From contig CAKMKJ010000014.1 of NCBI GenBank assembly GCA_927443345.1, forward strand, positions 36,120 through 100,119: a stretch of DNA of 64,000 bases, written 5' to 3'. Numbering within the stretch: position 1 is the stretch's first letter; every line of letters starts with the position of its first letter. The position numbers were made by a program, and so were the translations under genes. This document shows positions 3,329-64,000 of this stretch, piece after piece. This DNA is from an uncultured Anaerolineaceae bacterium (GTDB taxonomy: Bacteria; Chloroflexota; Anaerolineae; Anaerolineales; Anaerolineaceae). The notes under the pieces are model-generated. The model made no database searches, was not told the DNA's origin, and was given only the letters and a program-made list of their open reading frames with translations.

Positions 3329-3359
3329 GCAATCAATTCTTTTGAATAAGATTGATTGC
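3329..3359. promoter_or_regulatory. Inverted repeat in the copper-gene divergent intergenic region, candidate operator
   Basis: Perfect 9-bp arms (GCAATCAAT at 3329-3337 and ATTGATTGC at 3351-3359) separated by 13 nt. They sit between the divergent SafE-cupredoxin and copA genes, 48 nt before the chosen copA start. This position suits a metal-responsive repressor site controlling one or both directions. No regulator gene is adjacent, so this is inference. Confidence 0.35.
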
Positions 3360-3406
3360 GATCAATGAGCTTTATTTTTATAAATTTATCTTACAACGAG
3401 GACTTT

Positions 3407-5833
3407 ATGACCGATATTCGACTGATTACTCTCCCCATAACCGGCATGACTTGTGCCAATTGTTCTGCCGCCGTAGAGCGTTCACTAAAGAAAGCTACCG
3501 GAGTGAAAAGCGCTTCAGTAAACCTTTCATCAGAACGTGCGACTGTTGAGTTTGACCCGCAGGCATCCACATTAATCGATTTGGTAGGTCGTGTGCAGCA
3601 TGCAGGCTATGGAATCGCCGAAGGTGAAGCAGATTTGATCATTAAGCGCATGAGCGATGACAATGATGCGCGTCGTTTAGAAAAGGCGCTTTCTTCAATA
3701 GAAGGTGTCAGTGAAGTGCACGTCAGCTTTACAACAGAAAAAGTTCAACTGCGTTACATCCCCACATTGGTAAGCCAAACCGACCTGCGCCGCGCAATTT
3801 CAGCGGCAGGTTTTGAAGCACTTGAAACAGGTGGCGATGCAGAAGATGCTGAAGCTATGGCGCGGCAGAAAGAGATCGACCAACAAAAAAGGCAATTGAC
3901 GATCGGTTTGATTTTCACTGTCCCTCTATTTGTAATTGCCATGTCGGGAGATCTTGGATTACTGCCGATGCAAATTTCACACTCGACCTGGATCAAGTGG
4001 ATCATGCTCGTCTTGGCTCTGCCGGTTCAGTTCTACGTTGGATGGCAATACTATGTTGGTGCATTCAAGTCGCTACGCAACGGCTCTGCGAACATGGATG
4101 TACTCGTATCACTCGGTACTTCCGCTGCCTTCCTTTATTCGCTGCCAGTAACCTTTGGTCTGTTGTCTGGGCATGTTTATTTCGAAACCGCCGCTGTGAT
4201 CATTGTTTTGATCAAACTGGGTAAGTTGTTGGAAGTTCGTGCCAAGGGACGTACCAGCGAAGCCATCAAGAAGCTAATGGGACTTCGTGCTAAAAGTGCC
4301 CGTATCATCCGCAATGGACAAGAGATGGAAGTGCCGGTTGAGGATGTGTTGGTGGGTGATGTGATCATTGTACGACCTGGCGAGAAGATCCCGGTGGACG
4401 GCGTGGTTGTTGAAGGCCGTTCATCAGTGGATGAGTCCATGTTAACCGGTGAATCCATGCCGGTTGAAAAGGGACCAGGTGCGGCGGTTATCGGTGCGAC
4501 CCTGAACAAACTAGGGATGATCAAATTCGAAGCCACCAAAATTGGAAAAGAAACTGCCCTGGCGCAGATTATTCGCCTCGTGGAAGAAGCCCAAGGGTCC
4601 AAAGCCCCTATCCAAAAGTTGGTGGACCGCATCTCAGGTTATTTTGTTCCTGCTGTTATTGGTATGGCTCTACTCACTTTTGCAGCCTGGATGTTTTTTG
4701 GTCCACCCCTCTCGATCAATTCTGATGTGAGCGTGTTTACCCGTGCATTGATAGTCATGGTCGCAGTACTTGTGATCGCCTGCCCATGCGCCATGGGCTT
4801 GGCTACCCCCACGGCGGTTATGGTGGGGACTGGCAGAGGCGCTGAAATGGGTGTGTTGCTCAAAACATCCGAAGCCCTTGAACGTGCCGGACACGTGAAG
4901 ATGATTGTCTTGGATAAAACTGGCACGATTACCAAAGGCCAGCCCTCGGTTACAGATATAGTGGTCACAAATGCACGCTTCAAAGAGAATGACATTTTAC
5001 GGATGGCGGCTTCAGTAGAAAAAGGATCCGAACATCCATTGGGTGAGGCTGTGGTTGCTGAGGCAAGCAATCGAGACTTGAAGCTTTCCGAACCGCAAGG
5101 CTTTAGCGCCACTGCCGGCCACGGTGTCGAAGCTCAGGTGGATGGATTGCAGGTGCTGGTTGGCAGTCCGCGCATGATGACAGAACGACAGCTTGATACC
5201 AGTGCATTTGATGCTGAGGTTTCGCGACTGCAAGGCGAAGGAAAAACCACGGTGCTAGTAGCAATCGATAATGTCGTGTCTGGCGCAATCGCAATTGCTG
5301 ATACAGTCAAAGAAGGTTCCATCGAGGCCATTCAACAGTTTCACAAGATGGGTATCAAAGTGGCCATGCTAACTGGGGATAATCAACAAACTGCCCAGGC
5401 CATCGCCAAACAAGTGGGCATTGACCAGGTGTTTGCAGAAGTCCTGCCGGGAGACAAGGCTGCTGAAGTCAAGAAACTTCAGGCGCAAGGGTATGTAACC
5501 GCCATGGTGGGGGATGGTGTCAATGACGCGCCCGCTTTGGCTCAATCCGATGTGGGCATCGCTATCGGAACTGGTGCGGATGTGGCCATGGCTTCTGCAC
5601 CCGTGGTTCTAATCAGCGGAGATTTGCGAGGGGCCGCAAGAGCAATCCAGCTCTCACGCGTCACAATGACCACCATCAAGCAGAACCTGTTCTGGGCGTT
5701 TATCTACAACATCATCCTCATCCCCGCAGCGGCGCTGGGTTATCTGGTGCCAGTATTGGCGGCAGGTGCAATGGCATTCAGCAGCGTATTTGTGGTCACC
5801 AACAGCCTCCGGCTGCGTACAAAGAAAATCTAA
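3407..5833 (+). CDS. copA: Copper-exporting P1B-type ATPase CopA
   Basis: The ATG at 3407 is preceded by ACGAGGA at about 5 nt, so it is preferred to an upstream in-frame TTG at 3356. This gives an 808-residue protein. The N-terminus holds one intact HMA domain (GMTCANC) and a second HMA-like repeat at about 70-140 that lacks the CxxC pair. The membrane metal site is the CPC of [12 protein letters not shown], the phosphorylated Asp is in DKTGTIT, the actuator motif is TGESMP, and the hinge is [13 protein letters not shown] together with CxxC HMA points to Cu(I) export across the cytoplasmic membrane. The divergent copper chaperone and cupredoxin genes support this. Confidence 0.92.
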
Positions 5834-9500: not shown

Positions 9501-9878
9501 ATGCTTAATGTCACAAATTCAGAAGGTGTTCAGCTTCAAGCTAAGTTGTTTCGAGGCTTTAGTGATCCTGCACGATTGGCAATTCTTCAAGCTCTTCAGA
9601 ATGGGCCTCAGACAGTTACAGATATCGTTGCTACAACGGGAATGAGCCAGCCGAATACTTCTAACCACCTTGGTTGTCTCCGCGACTGTGGTCTTGTTAT
9701 AGCAGAACAACAAGGACGATTTGTTACATATCATTTGAGTGATGATAGGGTAGGTGATTTGTTAGCTTTGGCAAGTTCGTTGCTTGCTGATGTAGCACGA
9801 GGTGTGTACGATTGCACCCGTTATACAAGTAGGGATGAATTACGGACTAAATTAATTAAGGAACACATCAATGACTAA
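9501..9878 (+). CDS. ArsR-family metal repressor, CmtR-like (Cd/Pb sensor)
   Basis: The ATG at 9501 has a TGGAG about 8 nt upstream and fits the predicted transcript start better than the ATG at 9474. The product is 125 residues with a winged helix-turn-helix (SDPARLAILQAL, then TGMSQPNTSNHL). Cys59 and Cys63 lie in the recognition helix as CLRDC and Cys105 lies near the C-terminus (VYDCTRY). This Cys spacing closely matches the Cd(II)/Pb(II) sites of mycobacterial CmtR, so a thiolate-metal sensor of that type is likely. It overlaps the downstream P-type ATPase gene by 8 nt, which ties the sensor to that pump. Confidence 0.82.
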   Translation: MLNVTNSEGVQLQAKLFRGFSDPARLAILQALQNGPQTVTDIVATTGMSQPNTSNHLGCLRDCGLVIAEQQGRFVTYHLSDDRVGDLLALASSLLADVARGVYDCTRYTSRDELRTKLIKEHIND

Positions 9879-11961
9879 TCTGAGAACGCTTGAAGTTCCC
9901 GTCGTTGGAATGGACTGCACTGAATGTACCATGCATGTACAACATGCTATTAAAGAGCTTCCTGGAGTGAAGTCTGTTACCGTACTTCTTGCTGCCGAAA
10001 AGGCAACTGTTCAGTTTGATCCAGCCCAAGTCGATCTCGCTATGATCAGTAAAGCTGTTGCTGGAGCTGGATATAAGGTTCCTGATACAGCTTCCGATCA
10101 GGCTCCGAACTCTCGCACACTTCAGGACTTTACTAAACCTATTCTTACTATATTTGGTGTCGTCTTTGGTGTGATCCTGTTTGTGGTCGTCTTTGGAGAA
10201 TGGTTGGGATGGTTTGAAAAGATTACTGCCTGGGTTCCCTGGCCGGTTGGATTCGCCTTGGTATTGATTTTCGGTTACCCGGTATTCAAGAATGTATTAC
10301 AGGCTACTTTACGTCGGCAGGTGATTTCGCACACCCTGATGACCGTTGGCGTCATAGCGGCACTAGTGGTTGGCGAATGGGCAACGGCAGTGGTGGTCGT
10401 GTTTTTCATGCGGGTGGGTGATTACGCCGAAAAATTTACCACAGACCACGCTCGCAAGGCTGTACGGGATCTGACTTCGATGTCCCCTCAAACTGCCCGT
10501 TTGGAAAGAAATGGCAGCGAAGTGGATGTTCCAATCAACGAAGTTCAACCTGGAGATATCGTCGTTGTCCGACCTGGGGAAAAGATACCTGTCGATGGGT
10601 TGGTATTAGATGGTCAGGCGACTGTTAATCAAGCTGCCATAACTGGTGAATCAATGCCAGTTGAAGTTGGCCAGGGTGCAAAAGTTTTCGCTGCAACGAT
10701 AGCCCAAATGGGTAGCCTGCGTGTGCAAACGACACTTGTGGGACCTGATACGACATTTGGAAAGATTGTCCGTATGGTCGAAGAAGCCGAAGCGAACCGC
10801 GCTGAAGTCCAGCGGATTGGCGACAAGGTTTCAGGGTATTATTTGCCAGTCGTTGCGGTTATTGCTGTGATCACTTACTTGATTAGTAGAGATCCCCTGT
10901 CGACCGCAGCAGTGTTGTTGGTTGCGTGTTCCTGCTCTTTCGCTCTAGCTACACCAATTGCCATGCTGGCTTCCATTGGCGCTGCAGCTAAACATGGCTT
11001 GTTAATCAAGGGCGGCCGTTACATTGAACTGCTAGCAAAAGCCGATACAGTGTTGATTGACAAAACAGGAACCCTCACCACCGGAAAACCACGTCTGACT
11101 GATGTGGTATGCCTAAATGGATTGAGCGAGGAACGTCTTCTCACTCTGGCTGCTTCGGCTGAACGTTATTCCGAACATCCTCTGGCGGAGGCTGTACGCC
11201 AAGCGGCTCGGGACAAAGAATTGCGCTTATCGGAACCAAAGGAATTTGTGGCCGAGCCAGGCCGCGGCGTGCATGCCCGCGTTGGTGAAACACTGGTTGA
11301 AGTGGGCAGCTGGCGTATCCAGGGAGATCACTCTATTCCTTTAGAAGCAGTTGAGTTGGAAAAACAAGGAAAAACACTTCTCTTTGTCCGGGTCAATCAA
11401 GAATTGGCGGGAATATTGGCAGCTTCTGATACGTTGCGACCAGAAACACCCGCTGCGCTCGCGGAGTTGAAACGTTTGGGCGTTCGTAGAATCGAGTTAT
11501 TGACCGGTGACAATGAGCGCACGGCAGCAGCCGTATCCAGTCAATTAGGGATTGATTATCGCGCCAACCTCCTCCCGGAGGATAAAATCCGAATTGTGAA
11601 AGAATACCAGGCACAGAATCATATTGTCGTGATGGTGGGGGATGGGGTCAATGATGCGCCAGCCCTGGCTCAGGCAAATGTGGGCATTGCGATGGGGGCT
11701 GGCGGAACGGATGTGGCGATTGAAGCGGCGCATATTGCCTTGATGCGTGAGGACTGGACTCTACTTCCCCGTGCCTTTCAGATTGCTCAACGAACAATGC
11801 GAGTAGTGAAAATGAACCTGGGATTTACGATGATCTACAACATCATAGGTTTGACACTGGCGGCGTTTGGATTCCTACCCCCGATTCTGGCAGCTGCGGC
11901 TCAGTCGTTGCCTGATTTGGGTATCCTCGGGAATTCCTCCAGGTTGCTACGTCAGAAGTGA
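9871..11961 (+). CDS. Heavy-metal P1B-type ATPase (Cd/Zn/Pb type) with a CSC membrane motif
   Basis: A 696-residue protein. One N-terminal HMA domain has GMDCTEC at about 13-19. Six or more membrane segments carry the actuator motif TGESMP, the phosphorylation motif DKTGTLT and the hinge [10 protein letters not shown]. The ion-site motif in the membrane reads CSC (ACSCSFALATP) where most Cu and Zn/Cd pumps have CPC. The gene overlaps the CmtR-like repressor, so the likely substrates are Cd, Pb or Zn (inferred from the sensor). The loss of proline in the ion site could alter specificity. It exports metal across the cytoplasmic membrane. Confidence 0.88.
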   Translation: MTNLRTLEVPVVGMDCTECTMHVQHAIKELPGVKSVTVLLAAEKATVQFDPAQVDLAMISKAVAGAGYKVPDTASDQAPNSRTLQDFTKPILTIFGVVFGVILFVVVFGEWLGWFEKITAWVPWPVGFALVLIFGYPVFKNVLQATLRRQVISHTLMTVGVIAALVVGEWATAVVVVFFMRVGDYAEKFTTDHARKAVRDLTSMSPQTARLERNGSEVDVPINEVQPGDIVVVRPGEKIPVDGLVLDGQATVNQAAITGESMPVEVGQGAKVFAATIAQMGSLRVQTTLVGPDTTFGKIVRMVEEAEANRAEVQRIGDKVSGYYLPVVAVIAVITYLISRDPLSTAAVLLVACSCSFALATPIAMLASIGAAAKHGLLIKGGRYIELLAKADTVLIDKTGTLTTGKPRLTDVVCLNGLSEERLLTLAASAERYSEHPLAEAVRQAARDKELRLSEPKEFVAEPGRGVHARVGETLVEVGSWRIQGDHSIPLEAVELEKQGKTLLFVRVNQELAGILAASDTLRPETPAALAELKRLGVRRIELLTGDNERTAAAVSSQLGIDYRANLLPEDKIRIVKEYQAQNHIVVMVGDGVNDAPALAQANVGIAMGAGGTDVAIEAAHIALMREDWTLLPRAFQIAQRTMRVVKMNLGFTMIYNIIGLTLAAFGFLPPILAAAAQSLPDLGILGNSSRLLRQK

Positions 11962-47063: not shown

Positions 47064-47249
47064 TTAAACACACTTTGACAGGACAGCGAATCCCTGTGAA
47101 GAAGCAACTGGCTTCTCCCCTGGCGTTCTCTGCCCTGCGATTTTTCACGGGTAGTCAAAAACGTTGGAACACTCTTGGCGTTTTTCCAAGGGTTGGCCTT
47201 TCGTACCTGTTTTCTCAATTCAACGTTGGAAATTTTCACAAGGAGGATT

Positions 47250-48356
47250 ATGCAAGTAACACAAGATCTTATTCAAGCACAGGCTGAACGAACTGAGCGC
47301 GCACGCTCAGCCATCCTCGCTGGTAAGTTCCTGGTCACCCGGACTTCACCCCAACAATGGACGGTCAAAAATGGCGACAAGTTACCCTATGTCGTTTCAT
47401 TGAAACCCTCACAAAGTGATTCTGTTGGGAATGACTGGACCTGCACCTGTATGGACTTCCAACAACGAGGACCACTAATTCTCTGTAAACACATTGAAGG
47501 CGTCCGTCTATTAGAAGCGGCGCAAAATCAAAACCCACAATTAACAGAAAAGGAGAACCAAATGAACGATTCAAACCCCTCAAACGAAGGGAGCCTGGAT
47601 GATCGGCTGAGCCGCATTCTCTGGGAATTGCGTCAACCTCTGGATATGTCCAGAGTGAAACGCAGGCAAGCCCCAGGAATGGGATCTGTACCTTACCTGG
47701 AAGGATACGATGTCATTGACCGCGCCAACAGCATTTTTGGCTTTACCTGGTCTTTCGACCTGGTTGGTGAACCGGTCATAGTGCGCTGGCAAAAGAAAGT
47801 GTTGATCTGGAACCAGCAAGAAAAGCGTAAAGTCCCGTCACTCGATGGCAACGGCAATGTCCAGGTCGAGGAAGTTGGCCTGGTGTACATCACCGGTAAA
47901 GTGACCGTCGACCTCGATGGAAAATTGTACTGCCATGCTGATTTGGGACGATGCGTTTTCACAGGAGACACTCCGGAGGTTCTGGACATGGCGTTAGCTG
48001 GCTCTGCCACAGATTGCCTGAAGCGCTGCTTCCGCCAGATGGGTGAGCAGTTTGGAAATTCGCTTTATGACAAAGAAATTGCCCAAAATGCCGGGTTAGA
48101 ACAGAATCGGTCTACTGGTGCAAATTCACCCACTTCCTCTCGGTCTACACGCCCCGTTGTTTCAACACCTGTGCCTACTTTACCGGTAGTGCGCAAATAT
48201 GGCGACGGTGTCAGTGTCAATGGCAATGCCTCCGAACAGGAAGCATATGACCAGTTTAAGGAAAAAACTGGCAAAGCCCCATCATCCAAAGACGAACTGC
48301 GCACCTGGTTGACGGGTCAACGCAGCACTACCACGCCGGCATCTGTTGCCGCGTAA
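47250..48356 (+). CDS. SWIM zinc finger fused to Rad52/Rad22-like annealing protein
   Basis: ATG at 47250 behind AAGGAGG; 368 residues. Residues about 60-90 hold a SWIM finger (CTC, 11 residues, CKH), a DNA- or protein-binding zinc site. Residues about 115-285 carry the Rad52/Rad22 family pattern: LWELRQPLDMSRVKRR, YLEGYDVIDRANSIFGF, ITGKVTVDLDG, and ALAGSATDCLKRCFRQMGEQ. Such proteins anneal single strands in phage and plasmid recombination. The Pro/Ser/Thr-rich linker leads to a short C-terminal SAP- or hook-like segment. It is followed at once by ssb, its usual partner. Confidence 0.82.
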   Translation: MQVTQDLIQAQAERTERARSAILAGKFLVTRTSPQQWTVKNGDKLPYVVSLKPSQSDSVGNDWTCTCMDFQQRGPLILCKHIEGVRLLEAAQNQNPQLTEKENQMNDSNPSNEGSLDDRLSRILWELRQPLDMSRVKRRQAPGMGSVPYLEGYDVIDRANSIFGFTWSFDLVGEPVIVRWQKKVLIWNQQEKRKVPSLDGNGNVQVEEVGLVYITGKVTVDLDGKLYCHADLGRCVFTGDTPEVLDMALAGSATDCLKRCFRQMGEQFGNSLYDKEIAQNAGLEQNRSTGANSPTSSRSTRPVVSTPVPTLPVVRKYGDGVSVNGNASEQEAYDQFKEKTGKAPSSKDELRTWLTGQRSTTTPASVAA

Positions 48357-53646: not shown

Positions 53647-56600
53647 ATGCGTCCACCAGCAATCGAACGAATGGGGTATTACCCCACAGATGACCCGGTT
53701 GTCGAGATCATCCGTACTTACCTGAAACCGTCCATAGAAAAAGGGCGGTTATTTGATCCGTGCGCAGGAGAAGGCAAAACCGTTTCTGCCTTGGGCAATG
53801 CGCTAAACTGCGAAACCTGGGGTGTCGAACTCTCCCCGGAACGAACTGAGAAGGCACAAAATGCGATGGATAAGGTTTACCAGGCACCCTGGCAGGCCTG
53901 TGTTCTGAGCGACGAAAGTGTTTCCTGGCTCTACCTAAATCCACCATACGAGTTTGACCGTTTCGATGGCCAAAAACGGCTGGAATGGGATTTTCTCAAG
54001 ACGACCACATCCAAATTGATGCGCGGTGGGTTGCTGACCTATATCATTCCCCAGAAGATTTTAGGGATGATGGAAGTTGCCCGTCTGTTAGCAGGTCACT
54101 ATGAAGCCATCACGGTCTATCGTTTTCCGGATAGCCTCTACGAAAAGTTCAAACAGGTAGTGGTGCTGGCTTACAAGCGCAAAGTCTTTCATGCTCCCAC
54201 CGACAAGGAGGTGCTTTCCCTGCAAAATCTGGCTATTACAGAACTGGAACCCATCGAAACCGCTATTGAACCAGTCTATGAACTGCTGCCCGCGCCTTCA
54301 CGTGGTGCGAACGGCAAACCGATCGTGTTCAAGCGTACGGATTGGGAACCGGATGAAGTGGTTGAAGCCACGATTGAAGCAGGTGTCCATAAGACCAGCG
54401 AATGGCTGGATCTGATCCACCCCATGCGGGGATTGGCGCAGTTATCACAACCGGTTATGCCCTTAAAAAAAGGTCATATTGCCATGCTCATGGCCTCTGG
54501 CATGATGGGCACAGTGCGCTTGACTGATGAAGCGGGTAAACCCATGCTCATAAAAGGACGGGTGATCAAGGTGGTCGAGAAGACCGAGCAACCTGACTCC
54601 AAGGAGGCGGATACAGTAGTGGAAACCTACAAAGACCGTTTCGTGACAACGGTGGCTGTCCTAAAGCAGGATGGTATCCAGGTGATCCAGGACGTGAAAG
54701 GGCTTTCGGAGTTTATGAAAGCTCATGGCGAGAAGATCGCTGCGCATGTTCTGGAAACCTACAAACCGCTCTACAATCTTGACCCGACGCAAAAGGAAGT
54801 CACCGTTCTAGATGCACTCGGGAAACGGCGTAAGCCGTTACCGGGACAGGAACGAGCTGGATTGTTACCTGCCCAACGGCACGCTGCAGCGGCTTTGGCG
54901 CGCTCGATTCGTAAAAACGGCGTGGCGAACTGCCAGGCAGAAATGGGTACGGGGAAAACAACAATATCAACAGGTGTACTCGAATTGCTTGATGCCTATC
55001 CAGCAATCGTCCTTTGTCCACCGCACCTCGTTCCCAAGTGGATCCGTGAGATCGAAGAAGTGATCCCCGACGCACATGCACGAGAACTACGGCGTATTGG
55101 TCGAAATAGTGACGAGGTTTATGATGCTAATGATGTTCGTGATTTCCTGGAACAATATCAGCAAGCCAGTGAAACGGCTCAAAGAACAGGAGGCGCAAAA
55201 CCTAAATGGGTGGCAATCGTTGCCCATACCTCTGCCAAGTTCGGTGCAGGTTGGCAGCCGGCAGTAATTACTCGAAAGGCAAGAGATCCGCTAACCGGTA
55301 AATTCGTGGATGCTTGTGCCTGCCCTGGTTGTGGCAAAGTTGTGATGTTCGAGAAGGACGGTTTCTTTGTTCCCTTGACTGACACAGATGAATTGGCAGA
55401 AAAACGCCAATTTTGTCACAATCGTGTCCCTGGATGGGAGTTGGATGCAGATGGAAGGACCAAACTTGATGCCAACGGCGACTCAGTATGGGGTACACGT
55501 CCATGTGGAACACCGCTCTTTGAGTTCAATGGAGCACGGCGGCATAGCATTTCGGAGTACATTACCAAGCATGCCAAGGGCGCTTTCAAGCTACTAATTG
55601 CCGATGAGGTGCATCAATTCAAATCCAAATCATCGGATCGTGGTGTGGCGTTTCACCAATTGGTAACATCAACTAAGTGGACGCTGACCCTCACCGGCAC
55701 GTTCTTTGGTGGGAAAAGCACCTCTATCTTCTGGTTACTTCATCGTTTGAACCATGGTGTCCGACGTGACTTTGCCTTTCATGATGAGAAACGCTGGGCT
55801 CGACTCTATGGTGTACTCGAAACAACACGCAGGAGAAGACGTGATGATGACGCGGATGAGGATGGTGTGTACACCGGCAACAGGCGCTACCGTAACCAGG
55901 CCAAAGAACAGCCGGGTGTCAGCCCGGCTATTGTGAGTCGGTTGTTAGACACGACTATCTTCCTGAGTTTGAAGGATCTGAACATGGCGATGCCGACTTA
56001 CAAAGAAGAGGTGGTTGCCCTGGATATGCTAGACAACCAGGGGCAGCAATACCACAACATGGATAGGAGTCTGAAGCAATTAGCGGTTCAATCCAGTCGA
56101 TACCTTTCCACCTGGCTTCAATGGAGCCTGGCACGACCTAACTCGGCTTTTCGGGATGAGGTTGTGCTAGTGGATGAGGTAGATGACGAGGATGGAAAAT
56201 CAATCCGAAAAGTACCGCTGATGGAGTTGCCGGCAATTAACCCGAATGGCCACAAATGGCTACCAAAGGAAAACTGGCTGGCTGACTTCTGCAAAATCGA
56301 GAAGCAGCAAGGGCGCAAAGTGCTGATCTATGTTCGTCAGACTGGCACCCGCGATATTCAAGATCGGGTGATGATGCCTCTGCAAGCCAACGGGCTGAGA
56401 GTGTCCATTCTAGGCGGTAATGTTGACCCTCGCAAGCGAGAGGAATGGATCGCCAAACGTGTGAATACAATCGATGTTTTGATTTGTAACCCCCGGCTAG
56501 TGGAAACAGGCCTCGACTTGGTGCAATTCTCAACCGTGGTGTTCTTCGAGATCGAATATTCGCTCTATACGTTGTGGCAAAGCGTGCGACGTGTATGGCG

Positions 56601-57003
56601 ATTGGGACAGACCCAACCGGTCAAAGCAATTTTCTCGGTGTACTCGTCAGCGATGGAAGCAACTGCGCTGGCCCTTATGGGAAAAAAGATGAAAGCCGCG
56701 CAACTCGTTTACGGGGATGAGGTCGGAGGTGCGATTGTTCCAGAGGAGGAAGGTGACTTTCTCACTCAGCTTGCTCGTGATGTGCTGGAGGGTGCGAAGC
56801 TCTCTGACTTACAAACCTTGTTTGCTGATGATCTGCAAGTCAGCCACAATCCAATGGGCAGCCTGACGACCCCGAGCGCAGTGATCATTCCTAGTCCGAA
56901 AGTGATGACCTGGGATGATTGGATTAGCCAAAAGACAGTTGTTATTAGGCGGACAAGGAGAAAGGAGGTGATTCCGGAGGGACAGATGGGATTTGGAATA
57001 TAA
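53647..57003 (+). CDS. DNA methylase (DUF6094-like)-helicase fusion protein
   Basis: 1118 residues. The N-terminal about 180 residues are an N6-adenine type methyltransferase with the SAM-binding motif DPCAGEGKT (37-45) and catalytic NPPY (98-101). Residues about 400-1050 are an SF2/SNF2-like helicase: Walker A AEMGTGKTT (431-439), DEVH (653-656), and the C-terminal motifs LICNPRLVETGLDLV and QSVRRVWRLGQ. A CACPGCG cluster around 557 suggests a zinc site between. Such methylase-helicase fusions are typical of integrative and phage-like elements; they may mark or remodel element DNA. The two activities on one chain resemble self-marking defence or anti-restriction. Confidence 0.8.
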   Translation: MRPPAIERMGYYPTDDPVVEIIRTYLKPSIEKGRLFDPCAGEGKTVSALGNALNCETWGVELSPERTEKAQNAMDKVYQAPWQACVLSDESVSWLYLNPPYEFDRFDGQKRLEWDFLKTTTSKLMRGGLLTYIIPQKILGMMEVARLLAGHYEAITVYRFPDSLYEKFKQVVVLAYKRKVFHAPTDKEVLSLQNLAITELEPIETAIEPVYELLPAPSRGANGKPIVFKRTDWEPDEVVEATIEAGVHKTSEWLDLIHPMRGLAQLSQPVMPLKKGHIAMLMASGMMGTVRLTDEAGKPMLIKGRVIKVVEKTEQPDSKEADTVVETYKDRFVTTVAVLKQDGIQVIQDVKGLSEFMKAHGEKIAAHVLETYKPLYNLDPTQKEVTVLDALGKRRKPLPGQERAGLLPAQRHAAAALARSIRKNGVANCQAEMGTGKTTISTGVLELLDAYPAIVLCPPHLVPKWIREIEEVIPDAHARELRRIGRNSDEVYDANDVRDFLEQYQQASETAQRTGGAKPKWVAIVAHTSAKFGAGWQPAVITRKARDPLTGKFVDACACPGCGKVVMFEKDGFFVPLTDTDELAEKRQFCHNRVPGWELDADGRTKLDANGDSVWGTRPCGTPLFEFNGARRHSISEYITKHAKGAFKLLIADEVHQFKSKSSDRGVAFHQLVTSTKWTLTLTGTFFGGKSTSIFWLLHRLNHGVRRDFAFHDEKRWARLYGVLETTRRRRRDDDADEDGVYTGNRRYRNQAKEQPGVSPAIVSRLLDTTIFLSLKDLNMAMPTYKEEVVALDMLDNQGQQYHNMDRSLKQLAVQSSRYLSTWLQWSLARPNSAFRDEVVLVDEVDDEDGKSIRKVPLMELPAINPNGHKWLPKENWLADFCKIEKQQGRKVLIYVRQTGTRDIQDRVMMPLQANGLRVSILGGNVDPRKREEWIAKRVNTIDVLICNPRLVETGLDLVQFSTVVFFEIEYSLYTLWQSVRRVWRLGQTQPVKAIFSVYSSAMEATALALMGKKMKAAQLVYGDEVGGAIVPEEEGDFLTQLARDVLEGAKLSDLQTLFADDLQVSHNPMGSLTTPSAVIIPSPKVMTWDDWISQKTVVIRRTRRKEVIPEGQMGFGI

Positions 57004-57150: not shown

Positions 57151-58434
57151 TTATAGAATTGCCAATTGTTCCATTTGCTCTTCTGCATCGATAGCTGTAC
57201 CTAGTTCGTTTCCTATATTTATTCGCTCCAGGATTTGGTTGCGTTGGAATTGCTGATATTGTTGGTCTCTAGTTGAACGTGGAATTACCCATCGATTGAG
57301 CGCGGCCGTAGAAATAGTCTCTATTGATGGCCTGAGCAAATTTGATTCACGGGTTCGACCACATAAGAAATCTTTGAAATCGGATGCCATTGGCATTGCA
57401 TAAACCTCGCGGTGGATACCATGCCGAATCAATTCTTCATCTAAACCGAGGTACTTTAAACCTACCCTAAGAACACGGAAACGCCAATTTGGACCTTGTC
57501 CAAATTGATGACCGTTTGCATACGGATGATTCTCAACAACTAGTAGTTGACGAATGCGTTCGAAAAGGTCATTGGATAATTGAAAATGTCCATATCCGCG
57601 CGTTTCTCCAATTTTTTGCAATTTGACCAACGGTATTCCATTATGATCAATTAATTTCAGCCTATTATAAAGCGATGAACGGCCTAGAGCTGACGTAACA
57701 GTAACAAGCATTAATTTTGCTGCTTTGTTCTGGCCACTGATGATTCCTTTCACATTTCCATATTTCTGCGAAAATGCCTGACTTACTTCTGATGAACCAA
57801 TTAACGAAGCAACCAGTTTTCCTCCAAGTATCTCATTATAAGGAGGAACAGCACCTACCACATATGCATCCATTAAATGAACAAGCCGTTCACGACGATC
57901 ATTCACATCCCAACCAATCCACTGATCACGGCAACCCAAATTAAATACAGGGTCACCTAAGGCAAAAATCCCAATCAATTTGCCATTATACTGATCTCGA
58001 ACGAGAAACCGCATACGGCGGCCATAACCATGAGATACTGGTACAGACCAAAGTAGGGTAGCCAAGCGAAACAAATTGCCGGTCCAATGGTCACTAAAAA
58101 CAGGAACAAGCTCAGGGTTTATTCTTTCTGGATTTACTTCGTCTCCATTTGCGAAGTAATCTATTAGGTGGTTCACGTACCGCCCAATTGCCTGCCATTG
58201 ATGCTGTGCAACTTCCTGGCGTTGCTGGGCATGGCTAAAGCGAATAATTTCTTTGTCAGGCGCTTCTGCATTTGTTTCGGGAAGTCGAAGTGACTCAATA
58301 TGCGCCAAAATATCCATACGCAATTGCGTTATAGCCGGATCCTCAACAATAACAGGCTCAGCTAATGGACTAGGGCAAAGTTCTTCTGGTGCAATATTCA
58401 TATAATCAATAATTGGATCCGTTTGATTTAACAT
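57151..58434 (-). CDS. DUF4338 protein, DruA-like (Druantia anti-phage component)
   Basis: A 427-residue protein. The conserved core is visible at about 137-176 as YGRRMRFLVRD, IFALGDPVFNLGCRDQWIGWD, then KYGNVKGIISGQN and YNRLKLI, the pattern of DUF4338 proteins, of which DruA of Druantia type I is the named example. The biochemistry is unresolved. It is the third gene of the minus-strand operon; a 54-nt gap separates it from the nuclease. On its own strand TATAAT lies just before the ATG and no ribosome binding site is seen, so it may also be transcribed from a near-leaderless promoter. Confidence 0.72.
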   Translation of the reverse strand: MLNQTDPIIDYMNIAPEELCPSPLAEPVIVEDPAITQLRMDILAHIESLRLPETNAEAPDKEIIRFSHAQQRQEVAQHQWQAIGRYVNHLIDYFANGDEVNPERINPELVPVFSDHWTGNLFRLATLLWSVPVSHGYGRRMRFLVRDQYNGKLIGIFALGDPVFNLGCRDQWIGWDVNDRRERLVHLMDAYVVGAVPPYNEILGGKLVASLIGSSEVSQAFSQKYGNVKGIISGQNKAAKLMLVTVTSALGRSSLYNRLKLIDHNGIPLVKLQKIGETRGYGHFQLSNDLFERIRQLLVVENHPYANGHQFGQGPNWRFRVLRVGLKYLGLDEELIRHGIHREVYAMPMASDFKDFLCGRTRESNLLRPSIETISTAALNRWVIPRSTRDQQYQQFQRNQILERINIGNELGTAIDAEEQMEQLAIL

Positions 58435-58488
58435 TTAATTATTATACTAAACTGCGTTCTAAAGTTACCAAATTCGAAATCCTAGTAA

Positions 58489-59667
58489 TTACCGGGATTG
58501 CAAAAGATACAATTCTGAATATTCAGAAAAAACTGCTAGGGGAGTATAAGGAGCTCCTTGAAGCCTCGCATCCAAAATTAGAACTGTTTGACCAATTTTT
58601 GCATTGTACAAATGCGGCAATCTTTCCTCTGGTGTCGAAAGTCGGACTGTTGCATTTCTCCAGGCAATCGTTAGGTGCCATCGATGATTAATCAAGTCTA
58701 AACGTGTAATCCTTCCAGAAAAGCCAAAGGAGGCACGCTCTATTGCTTGAAGATGAGAGTTTTCTTCTGATTGCCATGACCAGAAAGGTTTACACCAAGG
58801 ACGATATTCGCAAATAGTGCACGTATCGCCAGGAATAGCCAATCTTGTTAATGAAAGCTCCTTCTGAAGGTTTTTAATTATTGTGGTGGATTCCTGTGCG
58901 ATCTTTATGCATACTTCAGGATCAACAGAAACAGGATAAGCCTTCCCTGCTAAAGGGTAGACAACGAATCCTGAAATCGGCCAATCGCCACGGGTTTCGT
59001 GCCACATCAGACTATATAGTTGTATCTGCCGTTGATAACGACCAGGCAAATCGTCTCTCAAGGCAGACTTGAAATCATAAATAACAGTTCCGTCACTTGT
59101 ATGTTCTACCCGGTCAATCCTTCCTTGAAATAAGCCATCTTTGGATCGTACTGGTACTTCAACTTCAATTGGAACAGAATCCGAATCTATTCTGGGCATT
59201 TCGTGAGTAGAATTTTTACCTGGCTCATTTGGATCAGAATGGATAAATGAAGTTGGGGTGAAACCCAATTCAACATACCGCATTGCTTCAAGTAGAATCG
59301 CTTCAACTGCCCGATCAACACGAGTTGTGTCTCTTGGCAAGGATTTCTCTCTTGGACGCGCTAGGGCATCAATTTCCTGGTGATGTAATTCATTCTCAAA
59401 TCTTTCACGAGCCTCTTTCACAGCAGTTTCTTGATCGTTTGGAAGCCCTTTTTCATAAAAAGATTGGAGCGTTCTATGAAAAGCAGTCCCGATCCGAACA
59501 GGATAATCCATTCTGCGCTCGTATCCAGGAGAGGCATCAAAGCAACTGCGTAGAGGACAGGAGCGAACAATTTCTACAATGGATGGTCCAAAAGGAGAAT
59601 TAGGTCGCACGTGTGGCGGCCAGTTTTCGTCTTCAGAAAGTATGTATGAAAAAGACGTAGTGGTCAT
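58489..59667 (-). CDS. PD-(D/E)xK nuclease with Cas4/AddB-type Fe-S cluster cysteines
   Basis: ATG at 59667 overlaps the stop of the upstream helicase gene by 4 nt (ATGA), so the two are translationally coupled; 392 residues. RecB-family motifs: GTAFHRTLQ (His64), GRIDRVE (Asp185), VIYDFKSAL (Asp198, Lys200) and QIQLYSL (Q-motif near 214). Four cysteines expected of a 4Fe-4S cluster are one N-terminal (SCPLR, Cys37) and three C-terminal (CTICEYRPWC, 283, 286, 292). All active-site residues are present, so it should be an active exonuclease or endonuclease. It is the middle gene of the defence-like operon. Confidence 0.82.
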   Translation of the reverse strand: MTTTSFSYILSEDENWPPHVRPNSPFGPSIVEIVRSCPLRSCFDASPGYERRMDYPVRIGTAFHRTLQSFYEKGLPNDQETAVKEARERFENELHHQEIDALARPREKSLPRDTTRVDRAVEAILLEAMRYVELGFTPTSFIHSDPNEPGKNSTHEMPRIDSDSVPIEVEVPVRSKDGLFQGRIDRVEHTSDGTVIYDFKSALRDDLPGRYQRQIQLYSLMWHETRGDWPISGFVVYPLAGKAYPVSVDPEVCIKIAQESTTIIKNLQKELSLTRLAIPGDTCTICEYRPWCKPFWSWQSEENSHLQAIERASFGFSGRITRLDLINHRWHLTIAWRNATVRLSTPEERLPHLYNAKIGQTVLILDARLQGAPYTPLAVFSEYSELYLLQSR

Positions 59668-62600
59668 GGTTGTATCAAATGATTCAACACCCAAAATGGT
59701 CGCCGTTCCAAATCAAATGTTGAATGAATTGCGGGTCGCAAGCCAGCCGCCGCGACAGCCGCTCGTTCTGGAGATGTCGGTTTCCCTTGGAGAGGATGGA
59801 TTACCCATAATGCTGTCTTTTGCCCTGAGGTATCCTCAAGAATGACCGGAAAATAGTAACCAGTTATGGTGCAAGGGGCTAGAATTTTATACGCGGCACG
59901 TGCATACTCAATGAAGCCAGATGCAGCACGATCCGCTTGTTCCCGGCTCACACTTGGAATTTCTCCTCTTAGTAGATATTTCAACACAGCAGAACCTAAA
60001 TGCCTATCAAGTATAGGATGAATCATCTGGTTGTTATAATCGTACATGCATTGGTAGCATGCACCTGGACAATCTGGATTAGAACAGTGCTCCCCAAGTT
60101 CCAACGCTTTTTCTAAAATAGCTTGAAGATTACTTTCAATCGCCCGAGCATATCCTGCCCCCCCTGGAACATCATCATAGAGGAATACCTCTCCATGGAT
60201 TCGGTGGGGTGGCCGACGGACTGCACGGACGCCGACCTTAAGTTCTCCCGGATCCACTTGAAGAACAATAGCAGATGCATTAGCTATAAGGGTTCCAAAA
60301 GACTGCCAGACTGCCCGACCAGAAGGTTCATAAAATGAAGCATCTAATCCATCGGTAAGGTCGACTCCCAGAAGGATTACTTCACTATGAAACTTATGTC
60401 CAAGGATAGCAAAATTTGTGAAGTCAGTTCGATTCGGACACGGATCGCTATATCTTGGGCCAAGCGTACGTCCATAATGTGGAGGTATATTGGAAGGATA
60501 ATTATGAGAAGTAGGATCTTCTGGATCCAGCATACGACCACACTTCGGACAAATCAGAAATCCGGGGGCTTTTGGATTAGGTCCGTTATTACTAATAAAT
60601 AAGTCGCCAACCCGTACGTATTTGTAAAGATTGGGGGCGAAAGGCTCTTGAGACTTCCCACCGGCAAAGGAAGTTTTTCCGACTAGCAGTCTTGCGGCAG
60701 TGACCATTCCAGCTCGTTCTCGCCCTTCTCCACTATATTCTCGTCTGCCTGCACGAGGTAGATTCCAATCAACAGTGAAACCAGGAGGTCTCAGGTAAGG
60801 GGTTAGTATCAGGTTAGAACTTCCACATTCGTCACAAACATCGGGCGGTCGAACCGTGACCGGTGTTATCGCGATGGATTTACAGTCGTAGCATTCGACA
60901 AGTTGCTCTTTGGGTAAGTAATCGGGGTTCTTCTCAAAACCGGAATACAGTGCAGCTGATTGGTAAATGTACGTGTTTGGAAATTCCCCACGGATTACTT
61001 CTGCTCCTGGAGCGTATTCCGCCAGTGCAATTTTAATATCTCTTTGCATCCCACTATCGCCATTTTCATTGTCGTTGTTTTGATTAGATTCTGTGGGAAT
61101 ATTCAGACTGACGACATCAACAGGAAAAGCATATTTCGGCAGTAAACCACTATTAATCAAGGAAGAGAAAAGATCGTCATTCCCATCTTGTTGAACAACA
61201 ACATCTTGTATTTCAGCTACAAGAGTGTCAAGCCATCCGCTAATATGGCTTTTAAAAGCTGGGTCTACAATCTTTTGGCATCGAACAATAAGTGGAGCTC
61301 GACTACCTGCCAGGTACGCTGTCAGTTTATCAGCCAGTTGTCTAGTTCCAAATTCTCGCACTTTTCCCCAAGTAGCAAAGAGATTGGCAGCAGGTTGGCT
61401 ATGGCTCAATCTGAAGAAAAAGTCCTGTAAGATCAATGCCCGCACATGGCGATGGGCAATTACTTCATTTTGGATATAAAGTGCAGGCACTCTCGGCGGT
61501 TGGCTGACAATTTCAGGCGGACGATTAAAGTAGTATTGATCATGACTTCGCGGTTGTGCAAATGAAAGCACGGTAGCAATCGCACTTCCTCGCCGACCAG
61601 CTCGTCCAGCGCGTTGTTGATAATTTGCAACAGAAGGAGGAATGTTTCTTAGCGCCACACAAAGAAGGGAACCGATATCAATGCCCATTTCCATCGTAGT
61701 TGTTACCGAAAGGATATCAACACGGTGATCGAAAGGATTTTGGTTTTCATGAAACAAATCTTGGAACCAGCGTTCTAAATCTCGAGCCTCATAACCAGGA
61801 ATCTGGGCAGAATGCTCTATTGCCCTCAGAGGATAGGGGTCCTCAAAAATTGTCTGGTTCAATACAAGTTGTGCATTTCTACGATAATAGTTGATTAAGC
61901 TTGTAGCTGAGTATGGAATCGTTTTTTGCCCACAACGTACACATGTGTTAAGGACGGTTTCACTCATGACGTAACCACAAGCACCACATCGTTCTACCGT
62001 ATCACTTATGGGATGTAAACCAAAAATATCGATTCGAATTCCCCATGGATATTGATTATTGCCCAACCTTTGGCCAGCTATACTTAATATTTTCGCGCCA
62101 ATCAAAGCATCCCATAAGGGTTTACGTAAATTTGCTCGCCAACGATCTGCATCTTCCTGCTTTTTTAATCGGCCATTTGATACGAGAGCGCGGCTTACAG
62201 CATTCACATAACGACCTAATTTTCTGTAATGCTCTAAATTGTATGGAATCGCATTATTGCCAAAGGCGCGCTCACCCCAAAATATCACTTTCTGTTCATA
62301 ATCTTCAAGCAAAGTTCTAGGAAAACCATGTTTCCATGCCCAAGGCTCTTGATCTCCTGGGGGTAATAGGATATTTTCGGTAGCAAGGATACGGGCAATA
62401 GATCGGATAAAGACATCCGTTTCGTCATCCGATAAAGGATCCAAGCTGCCTTCCGGTAACGCAACTCGCCAACTTGCCAATCCAAGGGGTTCAAGGTTAT
62501 ATTCGACTTCTGCTAGTTCCCTGCGAAGTGCCAAATCGAAGTACGTTTTTAGTCGAGATGCTACATCGAGATCACCTGCTTCAACTTTTGCAAAGAAATC

Positions 62601-64000
62601 ATTGTACTTTTCGCTTGCGGGAATAACGCCGAATTTAAATTGAAAATGTTGTACCCGCTTGTAAATTTCCTCGTATTTAATAGGGATTGGATTTGGATTA
62701 AACCGTGAACCATTGCATGTGGGACAACTTTTTATTCTCTTTTGAACAGGTTGGCCAATTCGAAACGGGAGTTCCTCTTCGATTTCTCCATCTCCAAGGC
62801 ATTGCGGACATACCAACAAAGCTAGATAGAGCAATTGTCGAAAAACATCGCGTGTATGATCCACACGCAAATCTCCTGCAAGTTTCGCGGCTTCCTGCCG
62901 TGAATCGCTGAAGAGTAAAGCCTTTCTACCCCAGTTGGGTGGTTGGCCATCCGAGGTGCGCGGCTGAACTCGAAATCCATCTTCAACAAGGTGCGAAAAA
63001 GTTTGTGGTCCTTTTGTTCGTAAATTTTCAATAACTTCTCTTCCATCGCCCCCTGGACCGCGATAATTTTGACATCGCGGACATTGGGACGGGAAGGGGC
63101 TAATCATATGTCCATCTTTATCTGTTGTAGCCTGGATTTCCCAAACAGGACGCGCCCATTCATTCTTTGGGTGAGTGGGAAGAGTGGTTTTCGTAGATCG
63201 GTAGTCTGGAGCAATATCAGGGTGCGGTTGCTCAACGCCAAAAATGCGAAAATCCTTTATATCCTGCCGTTCTCCTGACAGATCATCAGACCAAGGCCAC
63301 ATACTCTCTTGAATACTATCTGGAATCCCGCCTAAGAACAATAAACCACATTTACGACAAGTAAAAACTTCTAATACCCGGGAACCACATTCGCACCATG
63401 GACGTGGGTCTGTATAGAGTTTACCAACGGGTCTAGGGTGGTTCGGATCTCGGAACTTTTCAGGCAAAGCAGAGCAATTCGGATTCATGCATGCCCATAA
63501 GCCTGAGACGCCGCGAAAAAAAGCATGCAAACGGACAGACAACAAAGGTGGCACATCAAGTTTTGATTCAGGGCGAGCAAAACTGCCTGCGGAAATCAGA
63601 CCAGCTGTCGCCCGTTCTCGTTCTTCTGGCGTGGCCAAAAAATTCCAGCATTCGTCTGCAAGTTGATTAAGTAGAGTGGCGTTACGTGCAGTGCGTTGAC
63701 GGACCCAGTGGATATCCTTATTCTTTTCAAGTAATTGATAAAGAGCAACTTGCGGATTAAGAGTATGGTCTACCTGTCCTAATTGTAAGCTCGAAGCAAT
63801 CTCATCGATAGATGGAAAAGGATTGGTAATATCAAATGTTTGGTAAAAGTGATCAAAAACCTTGATGTTCTTTATTTCCGGTTTCCGATCTGGGAGTTGA
63901 TTTATTCCTGGTGGAAGACGAACAAGGGTGAACGCCTCTTTTGGTTCCGCAAAAAGATCTGAGATAAAACTGAATATTTCGTTCTCAACTCCTGGCACAT
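59664..64000 (-). CDS. DruE-like helicase with C-terminal DUF1998 (5' end beyond the window)
   Basis: At least 1445 residues, cut by the window edge. Multiple zinc pairs (CMNPNC, CECGSR, CRKCG, CPRCQ, CPQC, CGACG, CVRCG) and helicase C-terminal motifs are visible: KALLFSDSRQEAAKLAG (about 359-375), VTTTMEMGIDIG (about 766-777) and QQRAGRAGR (about 794-802). The DUF1998/MZB region near the C-terminus has DDVPGGAGYA and CPGACYQCMYDYNNQ. The DEAD/DEAH half is outside the window. Helicase plus DUF1998 on a single large chain is the pattern of DruE, the core protein of Druantia; DISARM splits it into two. It overlaps the nuclease gene by 4 nt. Confidence 0.72.
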   Translation of the reverse strand, partial: VPGVENEIFSFISDLFAEPKEAFTLVRLPPGINQLPDRKPEIKNIKVFDHFYQTFDITNPFPSIDEIASSLQLGQVDHTLNPQVALYQLLEKNKDIHWVRQRTARNATLLNQLADECWNFLATPEERERATAGLISAGSFARPESKLDVPPLLSVRLHAFFRGVSGLWACMNPNCSALPEKFRDPNHPRPVGKLYTDPRPWCECGSRVLEVFTCRKCGLLFLGGIPDSIQESMWPWSDDLSGERQDIKDFRIFGVEQPHPDIAPDYRSTKTTLPTHPKNEWARPVWEIQATTDKDGHMISPFPSQCPRCQNYRGPGGDGREVIENLRTKGPQTFSHLVEDGFRVQPRTSDGQPPNWGRKALLFSDSRQEAAKLAGDLRVDHTRDVFRQLLYLALLVCPQCLGDGEIEEELPFRIGQPVQKRIKSCPTCNGSRFNPNPIPIKYEEIYKRVQHFQFKFGVIPASEKYNDFFAKVEAGDLDVASRLKTYFDLALRRELAEVEYNLEPLGLASWRVALPEGSLDPLSDDETDVFIRSIARILATENILLPPGDQEPWAWKHGFPRTLLEDYEQKVIFWGERAFGNNAIPYNLEHYRKLGRYVNAVSRALVSNGRLKKQEDADRWRANLRKPLWDALIGAKILSIAGQRLGNNQYPWGIRIDIFGLHPISDTVERCGACGYVMSETVLNTCVRCGQKTIPYSATSLINYYRRNAQLVLNQTIFEDPYPLRAIEHSAQIPGYEARDLERWFQDLFHENQNPFDHRVDILSVTTTMEMGIDIGSLLCVALRNIPPSVANYQQRAGRAGRRGSAIATVLSFAQPRSHDQYYFNRPPEIVSQPPRVPALYIQNEVIAHRHVRALILQDFFFRLSHSQPAANLFATWGKVREFGTRQLADKLTAYLAGSRAPLIVRCQKIVDPAFKSHISGWLDTLVAEIQDVVVQQDGNDDLFSSLINSGLLPKYAFPVDVVSLNIPTESNQNNDNENGDSGMQRDIKIALAEYAPGAEVIRGEFPNTYIYQSAALYSGFEKNPDYLPKEQLVECYDCKSIAITPVTVRPPDVCDECGSSNLILTPYLRPPGFTVDWNLPRAGRREYSGEGRERAGMVTAARLLVGKTSFAGGKSQEPFAPNLYKYVRVGDLFISNNGPNPKAPGFLICPKCGRMLDPEDPTSHNYPSNIPPHYGRTLGPRYSDPCPNRTDFTNFAILGHKFHSEVILLGVDLTDGLDASFYEPSGRAVWQSFGTLIANASAIVLQVDPGELKVGVRAVRRPPHRIHGEVFLYDDVPGGAGYARAIESNLQAILEKALELGEHCSNPDCPGACYQCMYDYNNQMIHPILDRHLGSAVLKYLLRGEIPSVSREQADRAASGFIEYARAAYKILAPCTITGYYFPVILEDTSGQKTALWVIHPLQGKPTSPERAAVAAAGLRPAIHSTFDLERRPFWVLNHLIQP

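Follow-up and report, generated by a model that had tools for sequence, protein, structure and literature searches.

Described Druantia anti-virus systems combine the helicase DruE with differing partners, namely DruA, DruB, DruC and DruD in type I, DruH in type III (PMC13192584), and DruF and DruL in type IV (PMC8565338). In their main-text definitions, supplements aside, types I to IV hold no separate nuclease gene of the kind reported below (PMC7251935, PMC8565338, PMC13192584, PMC12458937). DruE of types I and II is reported to carry an inactivated nuclease domain (PMC12458937), which raises the question of what cuts phage DNA in these types. Here, we analyse a 64,000-nucleotide stretch (positions 36120-100119) of contig CAKMKJ010000014.1 (C14) from an uncultured Anaerolineaceae bacterium (hereafter the window), at the end of which three minus-strand genes encode a DruE helicase, a Cas4/AddB-type PD-(D/E)xK nuclease and a DruA protein (hereafter the trio). 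We regard the trio as a probable, so far undescribed variant of the antiviral system Druantia. The genes, with lengths in amino acids (aa), and their junctions lie in the window as follows:

57151-58434, minus strand: druA (DUF4338), 427 aa; Pfam PF14236 at E 2.9e-82, PADLOC DruA1 at E 1.8e-141
58435-58488, minus strand: nuclease-druA gap of 54 bases
58489-59667, minus strand: Cas4/AddB-type PD-(D/E)xK nuclease with a C-terminal OB fold and four invariant cysteines; PDDEXK_1 at E 1.2e-18
59664-59667, minus strand: ATGA shared by the stop codon of druE, which ends at 59664, and the start codon of the nuclease gene at 59667
59664-64000 (window end), minus strand: 3' part of druE, 1,445 of 1,811 codons (80%); PADLOC DruE1 at E 8e-191

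The first-pass annotation of this DNA had recognised the three minus-strand genes as DruE-like, nuclease and DruA-like, and Pfam and PADLOC agree with all three placements. It had also allowed for a better-fitting helicase family outside Druantia; the window part of the helicase matches MZB and Helicase_C in Pfam, and DruE is its best PADLOC family. The ATGA overlap that it named between druE and the nuclease gene reads directly from the sequence, and the same overlap was found at loci L010 and L011 and in genome G173, with gaps of 5 and 9 bases at L009 and L012. Counted from its ATG the nuclease has 392 aa, and from an upstream TTG 401 aa.

The window ends where contig C14 ends, with well over the C-terminal half of the helicase that the first-pass annotation took to be visible. 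When the last 1,001 bases of the window were searched against the same genome, the sole other match was the end of contig C31, 100% identical over 141 bases. With C14 and C31 joined, druE becomes a single open frame of 1,811 codons whose 5' part lies on C31 (L003:10905 onward), and the joined protein aligns over its full length with the 1,809-aa DruE of HGW-Chloroflexi-10, which stands on one contig, at 65% identity. From the overlap and this single-contig counterpart we infer the C14/C31 junction. Extending the window for the full helicase and further genes, as had been proposed, thereby gave a DruE of 1,811 aa together with a BREX type 3 gene set, described below.

The trio is a real and recurring unit. 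In each of the six genomes where the nuclease matched strongly, DruE, nuclease and DruA stand side by side (the window's, HGW-Chloroflexi-10, Ktedonobacteraceae MGR_bin248, G173, Anaerolineales UBA4823 and Meiothermus taiwanensis; five Chloroflexota and one Deinococcota). The DruE-PDDEXK-DUF4338 triplets that the first-pass annotation proposed to search for thus do occur in other genomes. The order is DruE-nuclease-DruA in four of these genomes and DruA-DruE-nuclease in two; only the 3' part of DruE is present on the 5.8-kilobase (kb) contig of UBA4823, and Meiothermus taiwanensis has the trio in two strains, in one of them on a plasmid, where transposase-family genes flank it. The nuclease, used as a protein query, returned 120 homologues of 37–94% identity, and a profile scan of genome contigs (built from an alignment of 37 homologues, window included) gave four loci. 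By comparing the 120 nuclease homologues with the best 120 of 4,784 DruA homologues, we found 22 exact longest-contig sizes in common, HGW-Chloroflexi-10 among them, versus a mean of 0.69 and a maximum of 3 in controls with sizes shifted by 1–60 either way. Whole-genome searches covered overlapping sets, in which the window's own genome was counted where drawn. Strong nuclease matches numbered 1 among 61 relatives, 3 among 400 genomes from the phylum, 3 among 400 from the order, 2 among 47 from one class and 1 among 111 from the Meiothermus phylum. The phylum set gave two additional weak matches, and among the weak matches overall the one in G008 is a fragment containing a stop (E 9e-4). The trio is rare among the genomes searched.

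Both features of a Cas4/AddB-type fold, a PD-(D/E)xK core and four cysteines, are present in the nuclease, and its predicted structure consists of an AdnA/AddAB/Cas4-type domain and an OB fold. The cysteines C46, C292, C295 and C301 are invariant in all 37 aligned homologues and presumably hold an Fe-S (iron-sulphur) cluster. Matches to Cas4 families were Pfam Cas_Cas4 (E 4.2e-5, 24.1 bits, just above the cut-off of 22.7) and NCBIfam TIGR00372 (45 bits, below the 65-bit cut-off). The nuclease resembles AdnAB/AddAB in its fold and, by its motifs, presumably also in its iron-sulphur cysteine pattern, whereas the helicase partner is UvrD-like there and by family assignment a YprA-type superfamily 2 (SF2) enzyme in the trio. 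A phage origin of the nuclease was considered and set aside, with no relative in viral_contigs and 0 of 77 pattern matches confirmed. For DruA, an AlphaFold2 (AF2) model with a pLDDT of 80.3 gave mostly acetyltransferases among the top Foldseek and VIA rows, and the fold is predicted to be GNAT-like. Seven phage records (H72-H78; Pelagibacter and Synechococcus phages) contain distant DUF4338 relatives of DruA.

The five full-length nuclease-linked DruEs form one clade, with support of 100/100, in a tree of 17 helicases. A tree from which three rows were dropped (two long branches of Klebsiella and Shinella) has good support at all 11 inner branches; in it this clade is separate from the type IV rows and from the branch that includes the one typed type I row. 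Type IV rows were typed by their DruF and DruL matches and the one type I row by DruB1, DruC1 and DruD1; the Klebsiella rows we take, from gene order, to be type III and ARMADA II. Two full-length DruE relatives matched PADLOC DruE1 with 975 and 1033 bits. By PADLOC the trio has both the DruE of Druantia (DruE1) and the DruA of type I (DruA1), and among the matches listed for 16 neighbouring gene products DruB, DruC, DruD, DruF, DruG, DruM, DruL and DruH were absent. The same library detected DruB, DruC and DruD at 762, 902 and 387 bits in a type I locus of P. putida, and DruF and DruL at control loci, the negative for DruH standing without a positive control.

Membership of the described types was rejected on these grounds. 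The trio shares DruE and DruA1 with type I, but has a Cas4/AddB-type nuclease gene, DruB, DruC and DruD are not among the matches listed, and its DruE clade does not include the type I row. With type IV (DruE, DruF and DruL in the main text of PMC8565338) it shares the helicase, and differs in its separate DruE clade and in that DruF with DruG/DruM or with DruL, as in types II and IV, is not among the matches listed for the 16 neighbours. Type III (DruH-DruE in the main text of PMC13192584) likewise combines a helicase and a nuclease in one defence; there, however, the nuclease lies within DruE, whereas in the trio it is encoded on its own and has a different fold, and DruH is not among the matches listed.

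At a probability of roughly 60%, we consider the trio to be a recurring Druantia variant in which the helicase passes unwound DNA to a separate nuclease. An alignment judged by eye revealed no conserved PD-(D/E)xK pattern at the DruE C-terminus, which makes it likely that helicase and nuclease act in trans. DruE would load on 3' single-stranded tails, as the main text of PMC13192584 reports for type III DruE, and would unwind invading DNA, handing it to the predicted iron-sulphur PD-(D/E)xK nuclease, whose OB fold would hold the single strand. This nuclease would replace the active PLD or Vsr domain found at the C-terminus of type III and ARMADA helicases in the main text of PMC12458937, and the pair would work like AdnAB/AddAB. 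DruA, GNAT-like by predicted fold, would sense or mark DNA and is likely a third subunit with a regulatory or DNA-recognising role; co-expression of the trio with BREX 3 would be expected in the window genome. Of the unwind-and-cut defence that the first-pass annotation proposed, the gene make-up and the close coupling fit, and the function stays a prediction. Because this variant encodes its nuclease in a gene of its own, closely coupled to druE, the question of DNA cutting becomes testable with three genes, and one such set is plasmid-borne in Meiothermus taiwanensis, a thermophile available in culture.

Directly upstream of the trio, on the same strand of C31, lie brxF, brxC, pglXI, a 230-aa gene, brxHII, pglZ and brxA. 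PglZ (BREX_PglZ_3, 483 bits, cut-off 250) and BrxF (BREX_3_BrxF, 113 bits, cut-off 50) assign the set to BREX type 3 by NCBIfam, and PADLOC assigns BrxC, PglXI, BrxHII and BrxA, the last most weakly (E 1.3e-11). From brxC-pglXI onward the intergenic gaps measure 23, 35, 2 and 14 bases, followed by -4 (pglZ-brxA), 55 (brxA-druE), -4 (druE-nuclease) and 54 (nuclease-druA); neither the brxA-druE nor the nuclease-druA gap has a terminator-like site on the coding strand. One transcript is likely. The 230-aa protein between pglXI and brxHII (L003:4457-5149) has no Pfam, NCBIfam or PADLOC match, and in HGW-Chloroflexi-10 genes of 187 and 873 aa, likewise without a match, stand at its place (L076). 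HGW-Chloroflexi-10 has brxHII-pglZ-brxA-druE-nuclease-druA in the same order on one contig, which ends inside brxC, and the brxA-druE junction is retained in both readable loci, where 55 and 56 bases separate the two genes. Identities to the window genome are 91% for BrxC (over 411 aa), 89–90% for BrxHII, 93% for PglZ and 72% for BrxA, versus 65% for DruE, about 47–48% for the nuclease and 62% for DruA; there are two pglXI copies (L076:9843-14767), which share 52% and 61% identity with the only pglXI of the window genome. The BREX core is thus conserved while the PglX methylase and the trio vary.

Of the six trio genomes, two have BREX 3 immediately next to the trio (the window's by way of the proposed join). 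In three it was not seen: no BREX genes were seen by the trio in Meiothermus (37 kb), G173 (40 kb) or the Ktedonobacteraceae metagenome-assembled genome (22 kb), where just a 159-aa helicase-domain similarity was found, and the 5.8-kb contig of UBA4823 is too short to judge. A BREX-3 PglZ (E ≤ 1e-60) is present in 14 of 400 genomes of the order, and the trio was found only in two of those, the window's and HGW-Chloroflexi-10; the other 12 gave no DruE, nuclease or DruA best match in 13 regions of 3.6–20 kb. A list of 105 BrxA homologues, which is an undercount that misses the BrxA of HGW-Chloroflexi-10, has two contig sizes in common with the nuclease and DruA lists (175,695 and 50,482 bases), versus a mean of 0.56 and up to 3 in shifted controls, none of them above 50 kb, where both contigs fall. 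On the 50,482-base contig, BrxA, nuclease and DruA are 41%, 66% and 74% identical to those of the window, versus 72%, 47% and 62% in HGW-Chloroflexi-10, so that BREX and the trio have different histories; this comparison of protein identities suggests more than one joining event of BREX 3 and the trio.

The upstream genes share brxF, brxC, pglXI, brxHII, pglZ and brxA with BREX type 3, and differ in the extra 230-aa gene without a family, in the trio behind brxA, and in a divergent PglZ (24–27% identical to 12 of 13 other PglZ matches of the order, 48% to one). BREX is not known to have a nuclease, and the trio's place behind BREX 3 bears on how BREX blocks phage DNA. ARMADA, in which BrxHII and a PglX-type methylase likewise lie close to a YprA-family helicase according to the main text of PMC12458937, was considered for the presence of these three together and not adopted, as PglZ, BrxC, BrxF and BrxA are also present here. 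No active nuclease domain was recognised on the helicase when the alignment was judged by eye, and in the tree it is separate from the one ARMADA II helicase included, a long branch of unsure placement. Elsewhere, L067:1425-4793 holds a BrxA/PglZ set (45% and 48% identical to the window genome's) followed by a CHAT and FGE-sulfatase protein cut by the contig end, not by DruE.

On its other side, the trio is bordered by a mobile-element backbone encoding a DUF6094 methylase-helicase, DnaN, RadC and Rad52, of which two genes are placed in the window as follows:

53647-57003: DUF6094 methylase-helicase
47175-48356: Rad52-type recombination protein of the backbone

G632 (L057) has the same backbone, with identities of 90, 81, 92 and 75%, and there it stands next to another BREX 3 and no further cargo. 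The DUF6094 gene is 90% identical in G632 and 81–82% identical in HGW-Chloroflexi-10 (L009), where Lamassu genes (LmuA and LmuB, separated by a small gene) lie behind DruA (L009:12606-16089), followed by DUF6094. The DUF6094 flank is a slot for changing defence cargo. The first-pass annotation had placed the trio in a defence-rich accessory setting; it foresaw neither the complete BREX 3 directly upstream nor the mobile-element backbone beside the cargo. On C31, L006:7929-9083 holds a tRNA-Met together with the frame of a tyrosine recombinase, which as listed starts within the tRNA. This site is likely one end of the island, and no repeat of the tRNA-Met region of at least 14 bases was found on C14.

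Several results weigh against reading the trio as an undescribed Druantia variant with a separate nuclease. With all 17 rows in place, the helicase tree joins the nuclease-linked clade to type IV at 94/96, and the cost of forcing the nuclease-linked DruEs together with the type I row (106 log-likelihood units, p-AU 2e-66) comes from a test named after the first tree had been viewed and with a single typed type I row. Pairwise distances of nuclease and DruA correlate at r 0.79 on 27 contigs (the 22 in common plus five loci; 0 of 2000 permutations as high), a correlation that is also raised by common descent alone. By sequence, the nuclease profile met no solved structure at E ≤ 0.001 (best 0.075, chance-like; AdnB 0.17; Dna2 0.65). 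The fold match of DruA is weak, with a best Foldseek E value of 3e-3 and none at E ≤ 0.001; its profile found no solved structure at E ≤ 1 by sequence, and a profile comparison did not link it to Mom, a GNAT that modifies DNA. DruA was not found in the stretches examined around two weak nuclease matches of the same phylum, G072 (20 kb) and G102 (6 kb), where DruE-like genes stand beside DruK-like nuclease genes (L023, L024), and is thus not part of every DruE-nuclease pair. Lastly, by family scores the trio nuclease is a distant relative of DruK, a PD-(D/E)XK family of PADLOC, and a Druantia-linked nuclease gene is to that extent not entirely new to databases.

Were the trio to belong to this DruK group (Druantia with a PD-(D/E)XK gene), it would not be new, a reading that we regard as distinctly unlikely. 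DruK is the best family for three of four scanned nuclease-family members (44–61 bits, E 5e-12 to 4e-17; the relatives 55–61), and two Chloroflexota genomes, G102 and G072, carry DruE-like genes beside DruK-like nucleases; these scores are low, however, against 172 bits for the G102 protein and 72 for that of G072, the window protein scores equally with Cas4 models (45 bits) and DruK (E 5e-12, 44 bits), no DruA turned up at either DruK-like locus examined, and a literature search for DruK with Druantia found no paper. As to the possible new Druantia composition suggested in the first-pass annotation, no published type with this make-up was found in the main-text definitions, and the existence of PADLOC DruK weakens its newness. 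We consider it very improbable that the trio is a helicase-nuclease for DNA repair or element maintenance rather than defence. YprA-family helicases also serve repair, according to the main text of PMC12458937, and the nuclease fold matches the repair nucleases AdnA and AddAB; yet the helicase falls within the DruE models and among defence DruEs, only 1 of 60 relatives searched has a nuclease match, which is weak and broken, and the trio adjoins BREX in the window genome and transposase-family genes on the Meiothermus plasmid.

A recurring Druantia variant with a separate nuclease could relate to BREX 3 in more than one way. That the two are independent defence systems in a common mobile-element cargo slot is quite possible, somewhat short of an even chance: the backbone borders the slot, G632 has a different BREX 3 alone there, HGW-Chloroflexi-10 has Lamassu genes behind DruA, and the trio occurs elsewhere without BREX. 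Unrelated cargo would, however, be expected to vary more than the brxA-druE junction does in the two readable loci, and homologues of BrxA, nuclease and DruA also occur together on two more contigs. A composite machine, in which BREX would recognise DNA without PglX methylation and the DruE-nuclease pair would destroy it, supplying the nuclease that BREX is not known to have, is rather unlikely, and equally unlikely is that the trio is a transferable nuclease module that joined BREX-3 loci repeatedly, varies with PglX and works alone elsewhere. The shared strand, the spacing of -4 to 55 bases between neighbouring genes all the way from pglXI to druA, with no terminator-like site on the coding strand between brxA and druE, and the repeated gene order in HGW-Chloroflexi-10 are consistent with such a machine. 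So are the divergence of PglX (52%, 61%) alongside that of the trio (65, 48, 62%), as though the parts that set specificity changed jointly, and the two further contigs, whose identities suggest more than one joining event. Set against it are the trio without BREX in the Meiothermus, G173 and Ktedonobacteraceae stretches, the 12 other genomes with a BREX-3 PglZ and no trio in 13 stretches, some of only 3.6 kb, and the count of just two contig sizes common to the BrxA and nuclease lists, where controls reached 3.

Towards the opposite end of the window lie two genes for heavy-metal P-type ATPases, at 3356-5833 and 9871-11961.

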